From positions 4,468,183 through 4,505,624 of the forward strand of contig FN649743.1 in assembly GCA_000310025.1 (NCBI GenBank): a DNA stretch of 37,442 nt. The letters run 5' to 3'. The position numbers and the translations under genes were made by a program. The notes beneath the pieces were generated by a model that saw nothing but the letters and a program-made list of their open reading frames with translations, did not search any database and was not told the DNA's origin. Source of the stretch: Ectocarpus siliculosus. Lineage: Eukaryota > Sar > Phaeophyceae > Ectocarpales > Ectocarpaceae. The stretch's first letter is position 1. Each line of letters begins with the position of its first letter. Of the stretch, positions 8,735-30,836 are shown in pieces.

Positions 8735-15193
<6,459 letters not shown>

Positions 15194-19267: not shown

Positions 19268-20450
19268 ATGGGTACGGGCGAGCCTTCAGCATCCTACGTG
19301 GAGGAGGAGACGGGAGCGGGGGCGAGGGCACCACTTGACCTAGTGCGGAGGGCGGTATGGGGGATGCTGTATGCCGATGACGCCGGCGTCATATCGAGGT
19401 CTGCCGAAGGACTGGCGAGAATGATGACCGTCATCGTGGAGGTGTTCGGGAAGTTCGGGCTGACGGTATCGGAGAAGAAGACGGAGACGCTCCTGATGCG
19501 CGCAAAGGAGAAGCGCACAACAACACCACCGCCCCCCCCCGCCGCCACCGCTGATCATCAAGGCAGCAGGGCAGAGGTATGCCCAGACGCCTGAATTCCG
19601 GTACCTAGGTGGCCTCGTCAACGAACATGGCGACCTCACCCGGGAGATCAATTACCGGAGCAGAACAGCGTGGGCGTGCGTCAGGAGATATGGCCAGGAG
19701 CTCTTCGACAGGCCGAAAGCACCGTTCCGACTGAAGACTCGCCTGCTCCAGGCCGAGGCGATGGAGGCATTGCTGTACGGCTGCATGACATGGGCCCCAC
19801 GTCAAGACCAATACCGGACGTTGCGGACGATACACCACCGACTGCTCCTTCGAGTTATCGCTTACCAACGCAAGGAGGGCACCTACCGGCAGCTTTCCTA
19901 CGCCCAGACCCTGAAGAGGGTAGGGTGCCAGAGCGTGGAAACCACATTCCGGCAACGGCGCCTGCTGTTCGTGGGAACACTGGTAAGGCAGCCAGACGGA
20001 CGACTCCCGAAACGGGTGATGCTTGGCGAATTGGTGAGGGGGGAGGGTCCAGCCAGGGGGAAACCGGAGCAAAACTGGCAGATGTGCCTGAAGGACGACC
20101 TCAAGATGTTCGAAGCAGAACACGGATCTACGGACGCCAAGCCATGCTTCTTCGGAGTCCCGGAAACAACTTGGATGGAAGCAGCGAAGGTGGACCGGAG
20201 GGTACCGTGGCATACAAGGGTACTGCAGGGAGCTAAGAGGTTCATGGCCTCCTGGCACAAGAAGGAAGAGGAGGCTAGCCGACAACGAGCGCTCAAACGA
20301 AACAAGAAGCCCGACAACACGGACACGGCAACAACCACGGGGGGGTGGGAGGGGTACAGCAGGCGGACGAGACGGCGAGGAAAGGAAGGAAACGAGAAGA
20401 GGCGGACCGAGTGGCGCGAAACACCGTGCCGAAATGAACCTTTTGCTTGA
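19268..20450 (+). pseudogene. LINE reverse transcriptase C-terminal half, frameshifted
   Basis: The family copies element RNA into DNA at the target site. Up to about 19540 one frame carries MLYADDAGVISRSAEGLARM and a FGLTVSEKKTETLLM stretch. Past a C-rich run at 19531-19541 the sense continues in a different frame as LIIKAAGQRYAQTPEFRYLG, then MEALLYGCMTW and LRTIHHRLLLRVIAYQRKEG, to the stop at 20448-20450. The frame change at the C run, together with the missing front half of the RT, makes it non-autonomous. The tail is Lys/Glu/Arg-rich. Confidence 0.85.
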
Positions 20451-23102: not shown

Positions 23103-23578
23103 ATGTACTCGAGCCCGATCCCTCCGTCCTTGCCCGGCCAGGTGAGTATCTCCATGCGGGTCTGCCTCGCCGGCTCGGCCACGTGCTCCCACGGGTACAT
23201 CAGCGCCATGTTCCTCTGGTACGGGTTCGTCACGAGCACCTGCATCAGGGTATCGCTGTCTTCGGCGGCCACCTCGGCGTCGGTTCTCCCCGCTGACCTA
23301 CGCTCCCCGAGCTCCTGCAACGACGACGCGGCCGCGCCGACGTCTCCTCGAGGCGGCTCGAGGTAGCTCTTTGCCCCCACCCAGAGCGCGACCATAGAGA
23401 GCGCCGCTCCGCACCGCAGCACCCCGCCCATGAGCCCTCGTCTCCTGCTTGTGTTGGGTCCCCGTCCGGTGGTGCTGCCGCTGCTGCAGCTACACCCAGC
23501 GGTCTCGCCTTCATCGATCGGAGCATAGCTGTGATGACTGCCGCCGCGTCGACTCTGTTCCCAGAAGTCAACCCCCAT
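23103..23578 (-). CDS. Probable first exon of the tyrosinase gene, with membrane anchor
   Basis: The start at 23578 has a favourable context (A at -3, G at +4). The 158 residues begin MGVDFWEQSRRGGSHHSY. A basic stretch (SRRR) precedes a hydrophobic segment at about residues 48-68, which suggests a signal-anchor with the catalytic part on the lumenal or outer side. The second half reads NPYQRNMALMYPWEHVAEPA and RQTRMEILTWPG, a segment I associate with the N-terminal beta region before the copper domains in this family. The proposed donor (GTGAGG) leaves phase 2, while the next recognised exon starts in phase 0, so at least one intermediate exon is unidentified. The open frame continues upstream into the neighbouring transposon repeat; that extension is coincidental. 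Confidence 0.7.
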
Positions 23579-23766
23579 ACTTTTGTACCGATGCACGGGA
23601 AGAGCAGCAACACTTCTTTTATCCCCCGGCGCTCTCTGCGGCTTCCCCTCTGCCTCTTTGGCTGGTGGAGCGAGGGTTTTGCGCCTCAAAAAATAAACGC
23701 AATACGTTCCCTGTGTGCCTGGCCGGCTCTGCTCTGCGCGGAGCTGGTGCACGCTTTTATTATTAG

Positions 23767-23775
23767 ATTTGTGTT
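23767..23775 (+). repeat. Left 9 bp flanking repeat of the MULE (putative target duplication)
   Basis: The 9-mer ATTTGTGTT lies six bases outside the left terminal inverted repeat. The identical 9-mer directly abuts the right terminus at 29842-29850. Mutator-like elements typically duplicate 8-11 bp, most often 9. Confidence 0.65.
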
Positions 23776-23781
23776 CGTGTT

Positions 23782-23900
23782 GGGCGCGAATATTTGCAAT
23801 CCATGGATTATAGAAGAGAACCACAGTCCAAACATCCAGACGGATCGAAACCCCGGGAAACCGCCCGGAGTGTCCCCGAAGAGGTTCTTCTCCCTCTCCT
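23782..23900 (+). repeat. MULE left terminal inverted repeat
   Basis: It starts GGGCGCGAATATTTGC and includes CCATGGATTATA and AAACCCCGGGAAACCG. It is complementary, with few mismatches, to 29721-29841. The inner end leads directly into a TATA-like box. Confidence 0.92.
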
Positions 23901-23908
23901 ATAAAAGC
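23898..23908 (+). promoter_or_regulatory. TATA-like box at the inner edge of the left MULE TIR
   Basis: The string CCTATAAAAGC reads toward the transposase and away from the tyrosinase gene. MULE TIRs commonly carry the element's promoter; its use here is inference from the motif and its position. Confidence 0.45.
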
Positions 23909-24457
23909 AGCGATAATCACGGCGGCGGAGAGCCGTCTGAAGGCGGCGACACGCACCCGCACGCTGGGGGAAGACGAGGAGACAACACACAACGATAACT
24001 GGTGAGATCCCGTCCCGACAGGCGTCCGTGCATCCTCTGTGTCTGTGCCTCACCCTCACCCTCTCTGTGATGTTTTTTTTGGAAAATAAAATAGCAACGG
24101 CCGCACCCGCACCAGCGCCATGTGTGTGTTGGTCTGTCTCCTGTGTTGCAGCCTCCCTCATGCTGTCCCACGTGTCGATGCTGCTCTGTACCTGTTGTTG
24201 CCGTCGTACGTACGTTGGTGATCATGTGCCTGCACTGGTGTGGTCAGGCCAGGCCAGGCCCTGCCTGTTGTCCTTGCCGTATAGTCCGGAGTCTTTTCTT
24301 CTGGCTGCTCGGCTGTATGGTGGTGCTACAGCAGTGCTGGGCTGGTAGAGGTGCAGGCATTGTGCACGCACTTGCCCAACCCCTTAACTTCATGTGTCTA
24401 CCCTCCATGTTCGCGTCGTGGGACCCGTGGCCTGCCGTGCGGTAGTGTCATTGCTAG

Positions 24458-24618
24458 GAATGCTTCCATCCAGTGCTGCTCTGTCGGCCTCTTACGGTGC
24501 TCGTCATGCTGGCGCTGCGGGAGCCTTTGCGGGCTACCCTGTACAAGCCCACCCCGTACAGCAACAACAGCAGCAGATATTGACCACCAGCCCTCCGCCG
24601 GAAACGCAGGCGAGACGG
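24458..24618 (+). repeat. MULE internal duplication, copy 1 (exon-like block)
   Basis: The block and its downstream sequence (to about 24805) are repeated at about 24862-25337. Both copies read GFAGYPVQAHPVQQQQQQ-like peptides (here GAFAGYPVQ) followed by SPPPETQARR. Copy 1 lacks the donor that would keep phase with the next exon, and its acceptor-side phase differs, so copy 2 is the better exon. Confidence 0.75.
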
Positions 24619-24861
24619 GTTGATGTTTGACAAGTGCGGTTCGACGTGACACCGGCAATGTTTGTTCCGTGGGTGTAGCACGCCAGTGGATTGTCGCTGC
24701 TGTGCTGTACCTCGTGCCTTTCAACGCGTGCACGTACGGTTCGCTGTTTTCGTGTACTCAGCGGTGGACGGCGAAACGTTTCATTTGTCTTGTCTTGTGA
24801 TCAAACGTTGACATGGTGTCCTTCCATTCCGCCGCGTGGTGGGTTTCGCGTGCGGTTGCAG

Positions 24862-25337
24862 GCCATGCTTTCACCTCGCACTGGTCTGCCGTTGGGAACT
24901 CCGGCCCCTGTGGGTGCTCCCGATGCTGGGGCCGCCGGAGGTTTTGCGGGCTACCCTGTACAAGCCCACCCCGTACAGCAACAACAGCAGCAGACATTGA
25001 CCACCAGCCCCCCGCCGGAAACGCAGGCGAGACGGGTTGGTGCTTGACACGTGCCGTTCGGCGTGACACCCACAATGTTTTTTTGTGTGCTTTACTTGAT
25101 GTTGCTGCTGCTGTTCCCCTTGGCCCCATGAAAAGAGCACCGGTATCTGGCATTCCCCCGGTCCACATCAAGGCTCCCTGTAGAGGCCCTGCCATTGTTT
25201 CCGTGGGTGTAGCACGCCAATTGATTGTCCCTGCTGTGCTGCACCTCGTGCCTTTCAACGCGTGCACGTTCGGTTCGCTGTTTTCGTGTACTCAGCGGTG
25301 GACGGCGAAACGTTTCATTTGTCTTGTCTTGTGAATC
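24862..25337 (+). repeat. MULE internal duplication, copy 2
   Basis: It contains the modelled first transposase exon (24862-25039) and downstream sequence shared with copy 1. The shared tail includes GGTGTAGCACGCCA, CCTTTCAACGCGTGCACGT and GCGGTGGACGGCGAAACG. About 80 bp near 25085-25190 is absent from copy 1. Confidence 0.8.
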
Positions 25338-28300
25338 AAATATGGGGCAAGGAAGATTGAACTCGTTGGAGTAGGTCTACAGTGGCTCCCGTCGTATCCC
25401 ACGGTTTGTCATGGTTGGTAGTCATGATGCCGCATGACGAACGGCCCTTGAAGCGTGGTACTGCTGTCGCCTCCACATTGTTACCCTGTTTGTCTGTGAC
25501 ACGCCACTTATTTTTGTGCTCCCGGCTCTCCCATACGGCGCAGGTCATGGGATGAAGCCAAAAGAGGTGACGAAAGCAATGAAGGCGTTGCACGAGGACA
25601 GCGACATCGACATCAACAAGCGCGCGGTGCAGAACGCAGCTGCCATTGTGCACGGGGCGGAGAAGCCGAGAGATGCTGCCGATGCGTACGAAGAGGTGTG
25701 TCCATGTGTCCGTTGAGACTGTTGCCTCTCTTGTTTGTGTGTGGGATGTTGGGTTTTGCTCAAGGCGGTATCCGGGCGACAAGACACATACGATCGCAGG
25801 TGACAACCGGGAGAATATATGCCCCATGACACCAAACCAAGAAATGTTGGAGGTAAAAAATGTGTGCCGTGCCGTCGTCGTGGTTTTGCGCTGATGCCCT
25901 CGATGTTTCCGGGCGCTTAACATGTTGCAATTTCAGGTCATGGCCGCGACGGCCGACGGCGGAGTGTGCGAGATCAAGATGGATGACAGCGGCCGCCTGA
26001 CGCACATCTGGTGGCAAACGAGAGAGCAGGTAGGTCGCCGGTCGTTGTGCCCCATACGAATATTCCCCAGCCGGAAGGTTTGCTTTCATTTTAGCATCTC
26101 GCACGTACCGCTTCGCCGTCCGCAAATGTAGGACGTCTGACCGAAAGCACGCCGTAGGCAAGGGTGGGGGTGCGTTGTGACGCGTCCAACACACGTCACA
26201 CCCACAATTAAGTGCTCTCGATCCCCTTCGACGTCATGCTCCGAATACGCAGGTGGCGCTTTGGAATCGGTACGGTCACGTTGCGCTCTACGACGACACC
26301 GCTGTCAAGAACAGATACCGTATGCCTCTCGGTGTGCTCGCTGTCGTCGATTCGGAGTATCGGACGCGGATCGTCGGCCAAAGCATAACGGCCGACACCA
26401 CAACGGACACTTTCCTGTGGATGTTGAAGAGTGCGTTGGAGTCTCGCGGGAAGCAGCCGGATACCTTCATCCAGGACGCGGACGCGGCGATGACGGCGGC
26501 GGTGCGAGAGGTGTTCCCGGACGCGCTGGCGAGGCGCAATTTATGGCACCTCAACCAGAACGTTATCAAGGCCCTCGCTAAAGTCCTTGGTGGGTACATG
26601 AAGGTGCGCTCTACTGTGTGTGTTGGCGTGGTTAGTCTGGCCTCTCGTATTGTCCTGGTCGCGCGACGTACGCTGCCCACTCTAGCCCCCCTCCCACCAC
26701 TCCCGCTTGTATCCCCTGTGCGAGTTGGTGCGTTGTCATGGATCAGTGTCGCCTACTTGGAAGAGTGATATCCAGCGTCTCTGCGTAGACCGTGATGCGG
26801 AGACGACCTCGGCTTCGACGGAAACATACCTCACGACGTCCAGTGCACACAGAAAAAGCAGCAGCAGCAGCAAGCAGGTTGTAAGCACCAATGGTATGTC
26901 GCTGAGTTTTTTCAACCCTCTCCTCGTCTCGCCTTAGCGCTAACGAAGTGTACGGGGTTGTTGGTGGCAGTCAATCGTACAGACCGGTAGCCCATATCGC
27001 AAAGGCCCCAACTCACGCAACACCCACCCGGCCCACGTCGTTTGTGTTTTCCGCAGCCTTTCATGGACGAGTTCAGGTGTGTGCGTCAGCAGCTGTCATT
27101 GGCGAAGTTCGAACGGAAGTTCAACGCCCTCATCGAAAAGTACCCGAAGGCGGAGAAGTACATGCAAGTAGTATATGACGACCGTGCACGGTGGGCGGAA
27201 TATGTGTCGCCCCTGGTGTTCTCCGTGGGTTCGTGGACGACATCAAGAGTTGAAGGTGCGTGTATGCGTCATCTGCCATCATGAGCGTTTTGTTCGAGAA
27301 CGACAGCGCATATAGCGTTGTCGTTGTTTTTGGGAGTTTTTCTACGTCTGCTAGGGGGTTGGGGGCGGCTATTCTTCCCTTGCCCCCATATTTACTATGC
27401 CCATTGGTGGAGTGCTTCTGGACGAATTTATCGTACGCCGTCAGTGGGATGACCAGTAAACAACTCCCTACATGACGCTAATGTTTACGACCTCTTCGAA
27501 ACATGTGGCTGTTGTCCGGCCCCTGTTGTTCGGGATTGATGTACTTGGTCGGTGCACTGCGATCGTCCGGCTCACGTGTACATACATCTGTGGCGATGGG
27601 TGCGTCAAGTCATAGGCTTCTCTTTCAGTCGTTTGGCGTACTGCGACTTCAACGATGTCTGATGACACCAATCACTAACCTACGGTTTGGTTTGTGTGTC
27701 GCTTCTTGCGTGTTTGTCCGCCGCACACACAACAGGCCAAAACGCCCTCATCAGGGATAGGTGCAACTCGCGCTCCTCGCTTTTGGACGTGGCGAAGTAC
27801 TTTTCGGGCATCATCTGTTCCCAGAAGGATGCCGCCATGCTGCGTGACGCAATCGACCATCTGCCGCCTAATCGGATGGCGGCTCCACCAGCGACCGCTT
27901 TCAAGAGTGTGCTCGAGTCCTGCGAGTTCTCCATCGCGGGCTGGCCGCGGCGGTTCATGGAGCAAGAGATGACCGCGGCCATCACGTTTTGCCAGATGGG
28001 TGGTGGGGAGGTGGATGGACCAGAACGCGCGGCAGCTTCGGGGCGCACGTTCGAGTACATCGAGGACAAGCTTTGCGACGCCATTTACGTCTTCGGGATT
28101 CACGAGCAGCGTGATGACAAGGCCTTCGACTACCTCGTCTTGCTCTTTTCCGACGGTAGCCATCTCTGCCAGTGCCGCACACTCCAAACTCTCAGGCTAT
28201 TTTGTCGCCATGTGTGGGCGGCGATGATGTACAGCCCCCGATTCAGATTCCACGTAGGCCTCCTGCACGAGCACTGGCTGACGGAAAAGGCGAGGGGAAC

Positions 28301-28808
28301 ACCGCAGCAGGACTGGCCGGATGTCGCCCGCCCTCGGTGGGTGGTATCCAACCGCCACGCTGCGAGAGAAGTGGACGGGGCGGCGGGAGAGGGAGAGGGA
28401 GAGGGGGTGGGGGGATGCAGCGGGAGGTGGAAGTCTTTCGTTGGGAGCAGCCAGACGGTGCAGACGGTCCTGTTGGACTTGAAGGAGAAGGGGCCCACGG
28501 ACCAGGATAGACAAGTGTTGTACGCCGACGTAACGAAGAAGCTCGGGCAAGCCGCGAGTATTTTGTCTGATCGCTTTTCACCGACAGTCGCCGTAGCCCT
28601 CGTGGACCAATTTCTGACGATGGTCAATGTGCAAGCAGGCGGGGTAGGAACTACAACGACGGGAGGGCGGGGGGCGGCTCTCTTCATGGCCAACCCTGGA
28701 ACTGTTCGCCTGCCCGCTAGGACAAGTAATAAAAGACGACCTGGCGCTGCAGAAAGATACACAAGAGGGGGTAGCAAGAGAGCCGCGACTTCGGGGTCCC
28801 AACTCTAG
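24862..28808 (+). CDS. MULE transposase with DDE-type core and SWIM zinc finger
   Basis: The enzyme cuts and inserts the element at its terminal repeats. Modelled exons are 24862-25039, 25544-25705, 25800-25852, 25937-26029, 26253-26603, 27057-27255 and 27736-28808. All phases agree and give about 702 aa without a stop; a still earlier 5' exon is likely. Order: a Gln-rich segment; a HGMKPKEVTKAM-like DNA-binding region; the MULE core with YDDT, IQDADAAM and LWHLNQNV motifs (the first two carry the expected catalytic aspartates); RVEGQNALI; then a SWIM finger, CQCRTLQTLRLFCRHVWA (C-x-C...C-x-H). The third catalytic acidic residue is not assigned. Exon three and the first donor sites are the weakest parts. 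The Gly/Arg-rich C terminus ends SQL. The intact frame suggests the copy could be active. Confidence 0.85.
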
Positions 28809-29720
28809 TTTCGGTGTTGCATACTTTGGGGTACGTGAGTAGCGGTACGCGGCCCTAGGTTTACGACGTCACCGGGGCATATGCCTGAACGATGTTTTGT
28901 CCCCCCCCGGCGGCAGGTCAAGGCTCGGTGTGTTGTTTATTTTTCGCTTCGGCGTTTTTGCGCCGATCGCCGTCTGTGATGTTGTCGATTTTGTGTTTGT
29001 ATGTCTATTTGGTTGTTGCGGTGTAGCGTTCGATGGGGCCATCTGGTTCCTGTCCTGTTTTTATTTCTTTTGTTCCATTTCCTTTTCTTTTCTTTCTTCC
29101 GCCCCCTTTTTTGCCGTGTTGGGGTCATATCCAGGTCCTTTCTTTTTTTGGTGGGGGTCAGTCTATCATCAAATCGCTGTTGGATATTGATTGTTCTGTT
29201 TTGTTTTTTTCTGCGTCTATCTGTGCTTGTCGACCTGTGTGCTCTGCGAAGAAAACCGTGTGAGCCGCGTCTCGAGTTTGTTGAGCGGGCCTGCGGTGTG
29301 CGAACTAAACGATGCCTACAGATTTTGACGGCCCCATGATGACTGACATCCATCACGGCAGCACCGTGCAGCAGGTTATATCTACCAAAAAAAGAATACT
29401 GCTGTATGTAGTTCACAAAATCTACAGCAACAATTGCTTGCAGCAGCAGAAACGCACAACAACAGCAGCACCACACGCGGATAGACACACACACAGAGAG
29501 AGACGAGCACTCCTCTAAGTACGGGGCGTTGTGTGTCGTCGTGTCCTCCTGTTCCTCTGAGGCCTAGCGTCTCCTGGGCATCCCGGGTGCGAAGGGTGGC
29601 CTTGGCGTGAAATATGTGCCAGTATGGCAGTATGGACTGTTGAGGCTGTTGCTGCAGACGAGAGCTCTGCTTCCGAAGACAACGGGCGTTAGATCCAGGC
29701 TCCGAGATAATATTGAATTT
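28809..29720. other. MULE 3' internal region without a gene
   Basis: The stretch lies between the transposase stop and the right TIR. It is T-rich on the plus strand at 29040-29220 (TTTTCTTTTCTTTC) and holds no recognisable ORF. Confidence 0.5.
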
Positions 29721-29841
29721 GAGAGGGAGAGAGGAGAACCTCTTCGGGGACACTCCGGGCGGTTTCCCGGGGTTTCGATCCGTCCGGATGTTTGGACTGT
29801 GGTTCTCTTTTATAATCCATGGATTGCAAATATTCGCGCCC
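29721..29841 (-). repeat. MULE right terminal inverted repeat
   Basis: This is the reverse complement of 23782-23900 apart from a few substitutions and a short insertion in the CT-rich inner end. It ends ...AAATATTCGCGCCC. Confidence 0.92.
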
Positions 29842-29850
29842 ATTTGTGTT
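29842..29850 (+). repeat. Right 9 bp flanking repeat of the MULE (putative target duplication)
   Basis: ATTTGTGTT directly abuts the right TIR and is identical to 23767-23775. Confidence 0.65.
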
Positions 29851-29964
29851 GGGGTTTTTTTGCGTGATGGTGAGATGGTGAGGCACCGGCCGCCCACGTT
29901 CATTGGCTGGGAGTTGACATTCCCGAAGGTAATCTACCATAACTCCACCCGGGAGAAGCCGCGG

Positions 29965-30836
29965 GACAGAAATACGCCCAGACGACCGAGTTCCGGTACC
30001 TCGGTGGCTTCGTCAGCGAACATGGCGACCTCACCCGGGAGATCAACTACAGGAGCAGAGGAGCGTGGCCGTGCCTCGATATGGCCGGGAGCTCTTCGAC
30101 AGACCGAAGGTGCCATTCCGACTCAAGATCCGCCTCCTCCAGGCGGAGGCGATGGAGGCACTGCTGCGGCTGCATGACATGGTCACCACTCAGCGGCCAC
30201 TACCAGACGCTGCGGTCGATACACCACCGACTGCTCCTTCGAGTTATCGGGTACAAGCGCAAGAAAGACACCTACCGCCAGCTTTCCTACGCTCAGACGC
30301 TGAAGAGGGTCGGATGCCAGAGCGTTGAAGCCACGATCCGACAACGACGCCTACTACTGTTCGCGGGAGCATTGGCAAGGCAGCCGGACGGGCGACTCCC
30401 GAAACGATTGATGCTCGGCGAACTGGCGGGGGGGGAGAAGCGGCGTAGGGGGGACAGGAACAGAACTGGCCGAAGTGTGTGCTCGACGACCTGAAGGCAT
30501 TCGGGGCTGACCACGGATCTACGAAAACCGATCCATGGTGTCTCGGAGTCCCGGTATGTACCGAAAGACACGGCACCGAAGTTAAAGTGGACGAAAGCCG
30601 CGAAGGTGGAGGGGGGAGTACCCTGGCATGCGGCGGTGCTGCAGGGAGCTGAGAGGTTCATGACCTCCTGGCACAAGAAGGAAGAAGAGGCCAGCCGACA
30701 ACGAGCGCCCAAACGAGACCACACAAGCCAACAACCAATGGGGCGGGAGGGGGGCAGGAGACGGACGAGACGGCGAGGGAAGAAAGTAAACGAGAAGAGA
30801 CGGACCGAGTGGCGTGATACGTACGTGCCGGATTGA
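29965..30836 (+). pseudogene. LINE copy B, 5'-truncated and frameshifted
   Basis: The sequence matches the RT thumb and C-terminal part of copy A from about position 19570 onward: YAQTTEFRYLGGFVSEHG, then LRSIHHRLLLRVIGYKRKKD, VGCQSVEATIRQRR and TSWHKKEEEASRQR. Frame changes are needed near 30080, 30160, 30350 and 30470. Nothing upstream of the thumb region is present. It is a dead fragment. Confidence 0.88.

Follow-up and report, generated by a model that had tools for sequence, protein, structure and literature searches.

Transposon biology has been little studied in brown algae. The stretch of DNA analysed here (the window; 37,442 bp, C18:4468183-4505624 within the 189-Mb, 492-contig genome of Ectocarpus siliculosus) contains a Mutator-like element (MULE) that a first-pass annotation, made from the sequence, had described as complete and as having an intact transposase. 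The question that this locus raises is whether the element can be regarded as an autonomous MULE, i.e., one in which the DNA-binding and the catalytic domains are both present, and, if not, how it may have been mobilized.

The element, its ends and its copies

The identity of the element as a MULE was borne out by its DDE transposase of the MULE type (the spliced protein scores 48.1 bits against PF10551 (MULE), with a cut-off of 27.6, and 26.1 bits against PF00872 (Transposase_mut), with a cut-off of 21), by its long terminal inverted repeats (TIRs), and by the 9-bp target-site duplications (TSDs) of its family, which are within the 8-11 bp of the superfamily. The inverted arms (23781-23896 and 29727-29842), previously given as ~120 bp at 23782 and 29841, measure ~115 bp and are 97% complementary; the left and right TIRs of the window copy are identical in 111 of 116 aligned columns. 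Since all 20 copies that we fetched start with GGGCGCG at the equivalent of 23782, the outermost base of the arms (23781, 29842) is, judging from these copies, fortuitous. The features of the element are compiled in Table 1.

Table 1. Features of the MULE copy and its flanks (window coordinates).
Feature	Position	Strand	Basis or remark
Left copy of exact 9-mer ATTTGTGTT, read as displaced target-site duplication	23767..23775	+	Seen in sequence, and resampling
CGTGTT between left 9-mer and TIR, read as outside the element; probably junction filler	23776..23781	+	Shared terminus
MULE copy, 6,060 bp	23782..29841	+	Termini common to other copies
Left terminal inverted repeat	23782..23896	+	Begins GGGCGCG
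Array unit D1a	24485..24666	+	88% identical to 24902-25083
Candidate replacement first exon, in frame; end differs from that of exon 1 of the FAR1-bearing gene	24865..25039	+	GT donor in D1b
Array unit D1b; a related unit holds exon 1 in FAR1-bearing copies	24902..25083	+	
Array unit D2b	25199..25334	+	96% identical to 24665-24800
Deletion junction, 11 bp versus 1,381 bp (exon 1 and FAR1 exons) in the C30 copy	25341..25351	+	
Transposase exon, common to FAR1-bearing copies	25544..25695	+	Exon comparison
Transposase exon	25937..26029	+	Exon comparison
Transposase exon with first two catalytic Asp (26295-26297, 26475-26477)	26253..26603	+	Residues by motif
AAT (Asn) at the Cys of CxxH	26538..26540	+	TGT (Cys) in L049, L050 and L051
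Transposase exon with conserved Trp (27192-27194) and likely catalytic Glu (27252-27254)	27057..27255	+	Residues by motif
Last transposase exon with SWIM-like CxCx9CxH (28167-28211) and stop (28806-28808)	27736..28808	+	
Right terminal inverted repeat	29727..29841	-	Inverted-repeat comparison
Right copy of 9-mer ATTTGTGTT, adjoining the TIR flush	29842..29850	+	Seen in sequence

Searching the genome with the TIR, a check proposed in the first-pass annotation, retrieved further copies with the common terminus and 9-bp duplications. A 29-base terminal pattern is present in 67 genomic places (63 exact and four with one mismatch), the last exon has 34 genomic matches (34 of 34 candidates scored), and the internal structure, as defined by the deletion junction described below, occurs in at least 32 places; the copy counts obtained from the TIR searches (best 40 of 74 and best 40 of 73 candidates) are lower bounds. 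Departures from the common form are degraded or absent ends at C30:1488788 and on the left of C6:1025364, and one extra terminal base at each of C19:2953278 and C23:2278970. Seventeen of the 20 fetched copies, which together with the window copy make up our set of 21, can be aligned to the full length of the element without a break, at 99.375% or more, and the alignments of the other three (L009, L011 and L018) are interrupted by N or deletions. The mean substitution difference within the set is 0.17% (maximum 0.49%, N left out); one of the 210 pairs has no substitution, and 83 columns are variable, some of them due to misaligned indels. Such near identity argues that the family has spread very recently, which, together with the 9-bp TSDs and the number of places reached, agrees with the earlier description of the element as young and recently mobile.

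The near-identical copies (the window copy and L010-L028) bear many private single-base insertions, which do not avoid the exons. In the alignment of 20 copies (L009 left out), 23 of the 87 rare insertion columns lie in exons, which make up 31% of the length, and 51 of 80 singleton insertion columns lengthen a run of the same base; the same alignment has 675 rare gap columns, two large deletions among them. The exons between 25544 and 28808 are free of indels in four of the 21 copies, including the window copy (L009 has N there). The private insertions are as suggestive of assembly error as of decay, and are probably errors made in assembling near-identical repeats.

An exact 9-bp duplication flush with the TIRs is present in 23 of the 26 other copies of which both ends were read; one more has it with an extra G, and two do not have it. 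The 20 fetched copies contribute 19 of the exact cases and the one with the extra G (L017). Among six further full-size copies, the duplication is present in C16:7153553, C23:2272916 and C24:2108121, and absent from C8:2998545 and C6:223013; C6:1025364, which has no left end, was left out of the 26-copy count. Both termini are intact in C8:2998545-3004594 (L031, L032), and a matching 9-bp duplication is missing. The C6:223013-229146 copy (within C6:222953-229206; L033, L034) carries a second, partial TIR at one end, a piece of the TIR being duplicated, and at its other end the exact 9-mer, CATGGGCAG, stands 13 bp away from the flush position (by eye), reflecting a complex insertion or a later rearrangement. 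A mini-element of 199 bp at C5:1994279-1994477 (L048) contains little beyond the two ends and has an exact 9-bp TSD, CACTTGGAG (by eye).

In the window copy, the 9-mer that had been reported in both flanks is indeed there (Table 1), with the left copy sitting 6 bp out, and the 9-mers that are flush with the TIRs match in 7/9 positions. When the 60-bp flanks were resampled 100,000 times under a first-order Markov model, 0.042% of the resamplings gave an exact 9-mer that was flush on one side and no more than 15 bp away on the other, and 0.35% gave 7/9 or better for the flush pair. The displaced exact 9-mer is thus unlikely to be due to chance, and CGTGTT would therefore lie outside the element. 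These six bases had been attributed to either filler DNA or an asymmetric end. An asymmetric end is ruled out by the terminus, which is identical to that of the 20 fetched copies, and so is a 15-bp target duplication (13/15 match), because the family makes 9 bp. Filler is plausible, also in view of the 9-mer that is displaced in C6:223013, and we favour a true duplication plus six filler bases, which may stem from repair of the ends upon insertion or from a minor alteration afterwards. Alternatively, the flush GTTCGTGTT could be the target duplication, the right copy of which became ATTTGTGTT by two transitions, both at would-be CpG positions, the outer exact 9-mer then being a by-product of locally repeated sequence. 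The 7/9 flush match is itself rare by chance; however, the displaced exact 9-mer is rarer, and two changes within 9 bp fit poorly with whole copies that differ by ~0.2%, so that we consider this alternative unlikely. Using both flanks as queries, we found no paralogous empty site in the same genome: the left flank (23560-23790) matches itself alone, and the right flank matches elsewhere only from about 29955 on, as a common repeat.

This repeat (29955-30120), located to the right of the element, has 94-95% identity to at least 39 other places (best 40 of 256 candidates), and the reading frame at 19497-20447 is similar to that of the repeat. In the left half of the window, the minus strand encodes a Tyrosinase central domain at 14125-14622 (PF00264; 26.2 bits, cut-off 22.6), and a tetranucleotide tandem repeat at about 10720-10990 has frames that read as runs of DRQT or CLSV.

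The transposase gene and the FAR1 region

The first-pass annotation had proposed an open transposase gene of seven exons. Five downstream exons can indeed be joined without a break in the frame, with splice sites that are conserved in all three diverged copies that were read, named L049 (C24:2108121-2115000), L050 (on C489) and L051 (on C30), of which L049 and L050 have nearly the same sequence; the seven-exon model itself was not reproduced, and the region upstream of 25544 is a duplicated array. The SWIM-like CxCx9CxH pattern of the last exon was recognized by eye, the score against SWIM (PF04434) being 13.5 bits with a cut-off of 19.6.

A stretch of ~1.2 kb that is absent from the window class is present in four diverged places of the genome (4/4 candidates), i.e., C489:1273646 and C24:2112596 (100%), C24:3820108 (99%) and C30:1482622 (97%). 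In L049, L050 and L051, this stretch lies between parts that can be aligned to the window copy. The exons of the extra stretch of L049, joined to exon 1, give an N-terminus of 205 residues in which a FAR1 domain is recognized (31.9 bits, cut-off 28.1, E 2.3e-7); the Pfam test was made on L049, and the frames of the other copies read alike. The spliced protein of the window copy gave no hit to FAR1 at E<=1, so that the N-terminal FAR1 that characterizes FAR1/Jittery-type MULEs is present in L049 and missing from the window class. A whole-genome search for the FAR1 family gave no match, not even at the L049 locus, and its controls were silent too; a PDB sequence search with the L049 N-terminus gave one weak match, to a ribosomal protein.

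The anatomy of the upstream array indicates how the two classes are related. In the FAR1-bearing relatives, one unit of the array contains exon 1, and behind it come three further exons that the window copy lacks. The upstream array of the C30 copy matches that of the window copy except for one additional unit. Relative to the C30 copy, 1,381 bp are deleted from the window copy, a loss that includes exon 1, the exons encoding FAR1 and the splice donor of the intron after them. Duplicated filler in place of the lost stretch was also considered and is ruled out, since the C30 copy reveals a simple deletion. A 32-base pattern across the junction is exact in 32 genomic places and in all 21 copies compared, including the window copy. 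Based on this anatomy and on the N-terminal position of FAR1 in known MULEs, we infer a loss of FAR1 rather than a gain, with the FAR1-bearing form as the older of the two. The terms complete and intact transposase can therefore not be maintained: the stretch holding the N-terminal exons that include FAR1 has been deleted, and the window class does not combine a DNA-binding with a catalytic domain. It is possible that 24865-25039 serves as a substitute first exon of the window class.

The classes also differ in the CxxH motif between the second Asp and the Glu. Positions 26538-26549 encode Asn-Leu-Trp-His in 21/21 copies of the window class versus Cys-Leu-Trp-His in the three FAR1-bearing copies read; the window class thus has NxxH. 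It has been shown that the CH motif is present in most MULE transposases, and that replacing the His of CxxH by Ala in Muta1 cut transposition by 99.5% (PMC5225508). The residue altered in the window class is the Cys, not the His. Because most, not all, MULEs have the motif (PMC5225508), the assignment to the MULEs stands despite NxxH. The three presumed catalytic acids (26295, 26475 and 27252) are the same in both classes. The MULE domain scores mostly 52.4 bits in the window class versus 57.9-60.5 in the four FAR1-bearing copies.

On the branch leading to the window class, the exons acquired 12 nonsynonymous and 16 synonymous changes (dN/dS 0.23; computed without gapped codons and a single ambiguous one), which indicates that they evolved as coding sequence. 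The probability of 12 or fewer nonsynonymous changes among 28 is 0.0001 if sites are hit evenly, transition bias not being allowed for. The protein was thus useful for much of this branch, which speaks against an early loss of function. The L049 branch has six synonymous and four nonsynonymous changes, and the L051 branch has 10 and 16. A separate observation is that synonymous changes on the window-class branch (16/431) exceed intron changes (7/1516) about eightfold (p=1.3e-6; regions 25352-28805 and 23797-24476 compared), with the 5' noncoding sequence (10/664) in between. This excess is absent on the L049 and L051 branches; exon-limited conversion is one idea as to its source.

The TIRs of both classes are nearly the same (left, 112/116 in L049 and 113/116 in L053; right outer part, 80/81 in the C24:2108121 copy). 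The FAR1-bearing class has also moved recently, as follows from the different right flanks of the C24:2108121-2115000 and C489 copies, the 1,165-bp FAR1 regions of which are 100% identical, and from the exact 9-bp TSD of the C24:2108121 copy. The last exon has the same 4-bp insertion in L049 and L050, and one more base is inserted in L049; the product of the last exon of L050 has 329 residues versus 357. The C30 copy has degraded termini, and the C24:3820108 copy appears to be cut short. Among the viral contigs, 16 stretches matched a pattern and none was confirmed as a relative.

Spread of the FAR1-less class

The explanation that we prefer, and consider fairly probable, is that the window class is a decapitated, probably non-autonomous derivative that was moved in trans by its rarer FAR1-bearing relatives in a very recent burst. 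A FAR1-bearing element would have lost exon 1, the exons for FAR1 and the splice donor after them in a single internal deletion of 1.38 kb. In the derivative, both termini and the DDE core are preserved, and CxxH has Asn in place of Cys; it is now found in at least 32 places, where 9-bp target duplications were made. It was most likely the FAR1-bearing transposase that bound this derivative and mobilized it in trans. Movement in trans is suggested because a product without FAR1 should not recognise the TIRs, in line with the statement that TIR binding is the task of the N-terminal DNA-binding domain, in that case an HTH (PMC3903597). Consistent with this view, the FAR1 region is present in four places versus 32 for the junction, and the TIRs of the two classes are near-identical. 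The 199-bp mini-element with its exact TSD also points to a transposase acting in trans in the family. It should be noted that the constraint on the window-class exons, which implies a functional protein for much of the branch, counts against this explanation, as do the SWIM-like tail, which could bind DNA, and the condition of the FAR1-bearing copies, since each one examined has an insertion, degraded ends or an apparent truncation.

The same constraint would be expected if the FAR1-less protein were itself a working transposase that recognises the TIRs via the SWIM-like tail or another part, the loss of FAR1 having been harmless or having favoured the burst. The FAR1-less class is indeed the abundant one, a first exon can be joined in frame through a GT donor in D1b, and the two classes agree in the three presumed catalytic residues. 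However, the domain held to bind the TIRs in MULEs has been lost, the Cys of CxxH has become Asn, the MULE domain scores lower than in the FAR1-bearing four, and the rare insertions, many of which are perhaps assembly errors, do not avoid the exons; we therefore regard a working FAR1-less transposase as unlikely. Somewhat less likely again is the stronger form of the same idea, i.e., a self-sufficient class that shed FAR1, altered CxxH, located its TIRs through a different region of the transposase and owed its spread to the change. The long, constrained reading frame might instead have been retained because the truncated product acts with or against the full-length transposase, in mixed multimers or as a dominant-negative repressor. 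The DDE core that the two products share could multimerise, as in transposases in general, and we consider this role improbable. The original view of a complete, autonomous MULE with an intact transposase can draw on the open frame of five exons, the TIRs and the young copies; it is contradicted by the deletion of the stretch that encodes FAR1 in the relatives, unless the ancestral form of the family lacked FAR1, and is in our opinion very improbable.

If the preferred reading of mobilization in trans is correct, an element with an open frame and well-preserved ends is not necessarily autonomous. With a fuller form and a truncated one side by side in the same genome, this family is suited to testing which part of the transposase reads the ends of a MULE.

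Comparison with known systems

In the genome of Ectocarpus sp. 7 Ec32, one DNA/MuDR family has been catalogued, with 56 copies (42 intact) that make up 0.13% of 200.2 Mb (PMC12477816, Table 1). The family described here, with at least 36 internal copies of ~6 kb, makes up roughly 0.1% of 189 Mb; based on this comparison, which is limited to size, copy number and genome share, it is probably the same family. The main text of that paper mentions MuDR once, in the table, MULE three times, one of them as Pack-MULE, and does not mention FAR1, and mobilisation in trans is inferred in it for giant families with broken transposase genes (PMC12477816). It also reports that EsV-1-7 domains proliferated in brown algae (PMC12477816); these cysteine domains are very numerous in the present genome as well (at least 150, the best 150 of 880 candidates all being over the cut-off), and were not found in 14 control genomes, in agreement with a brown-algal host. 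A burst of a FAR1-less MULE in a brown alga is not reported among the literature matches listed.

The Jittery/FAR1-type MULEs have an N-terminal FAR1, a C-terminal SWIM or CCHC and TIRs of 39-292 bp (PMC6446971). The FAR1-bearing relatives share this layout, whereas the window class lacks FAR1, and the TSD is 9 bp here versus 8 bp, or not indicated, there (PMC6446971). Deletions of DNA-binding, catalytic or other parts of the transposase are common in the coding MULEs of maize and rice placed in Group VI (PMC3903597). The family described here differs from these in that one deletion copy founded most of a young family: an internally deleted relative that has kept nearly the whole catalytic gene outnumbers the FAR1-bearing form about eight to one (32 versus four places). 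Movement of non-autonomous derivatives is known from Muta1 of Aedes aegypti, which moves them in a yeast assay (PMC5225508). Muta1 is likewise a MULE with 8- or 9-bp TSDs and has the DDE residues, CxxH and the Trp; unlike the family described here, it has FLYWCH in place of the FAR1 finger, and it has been shown to be active (PMC5225508).
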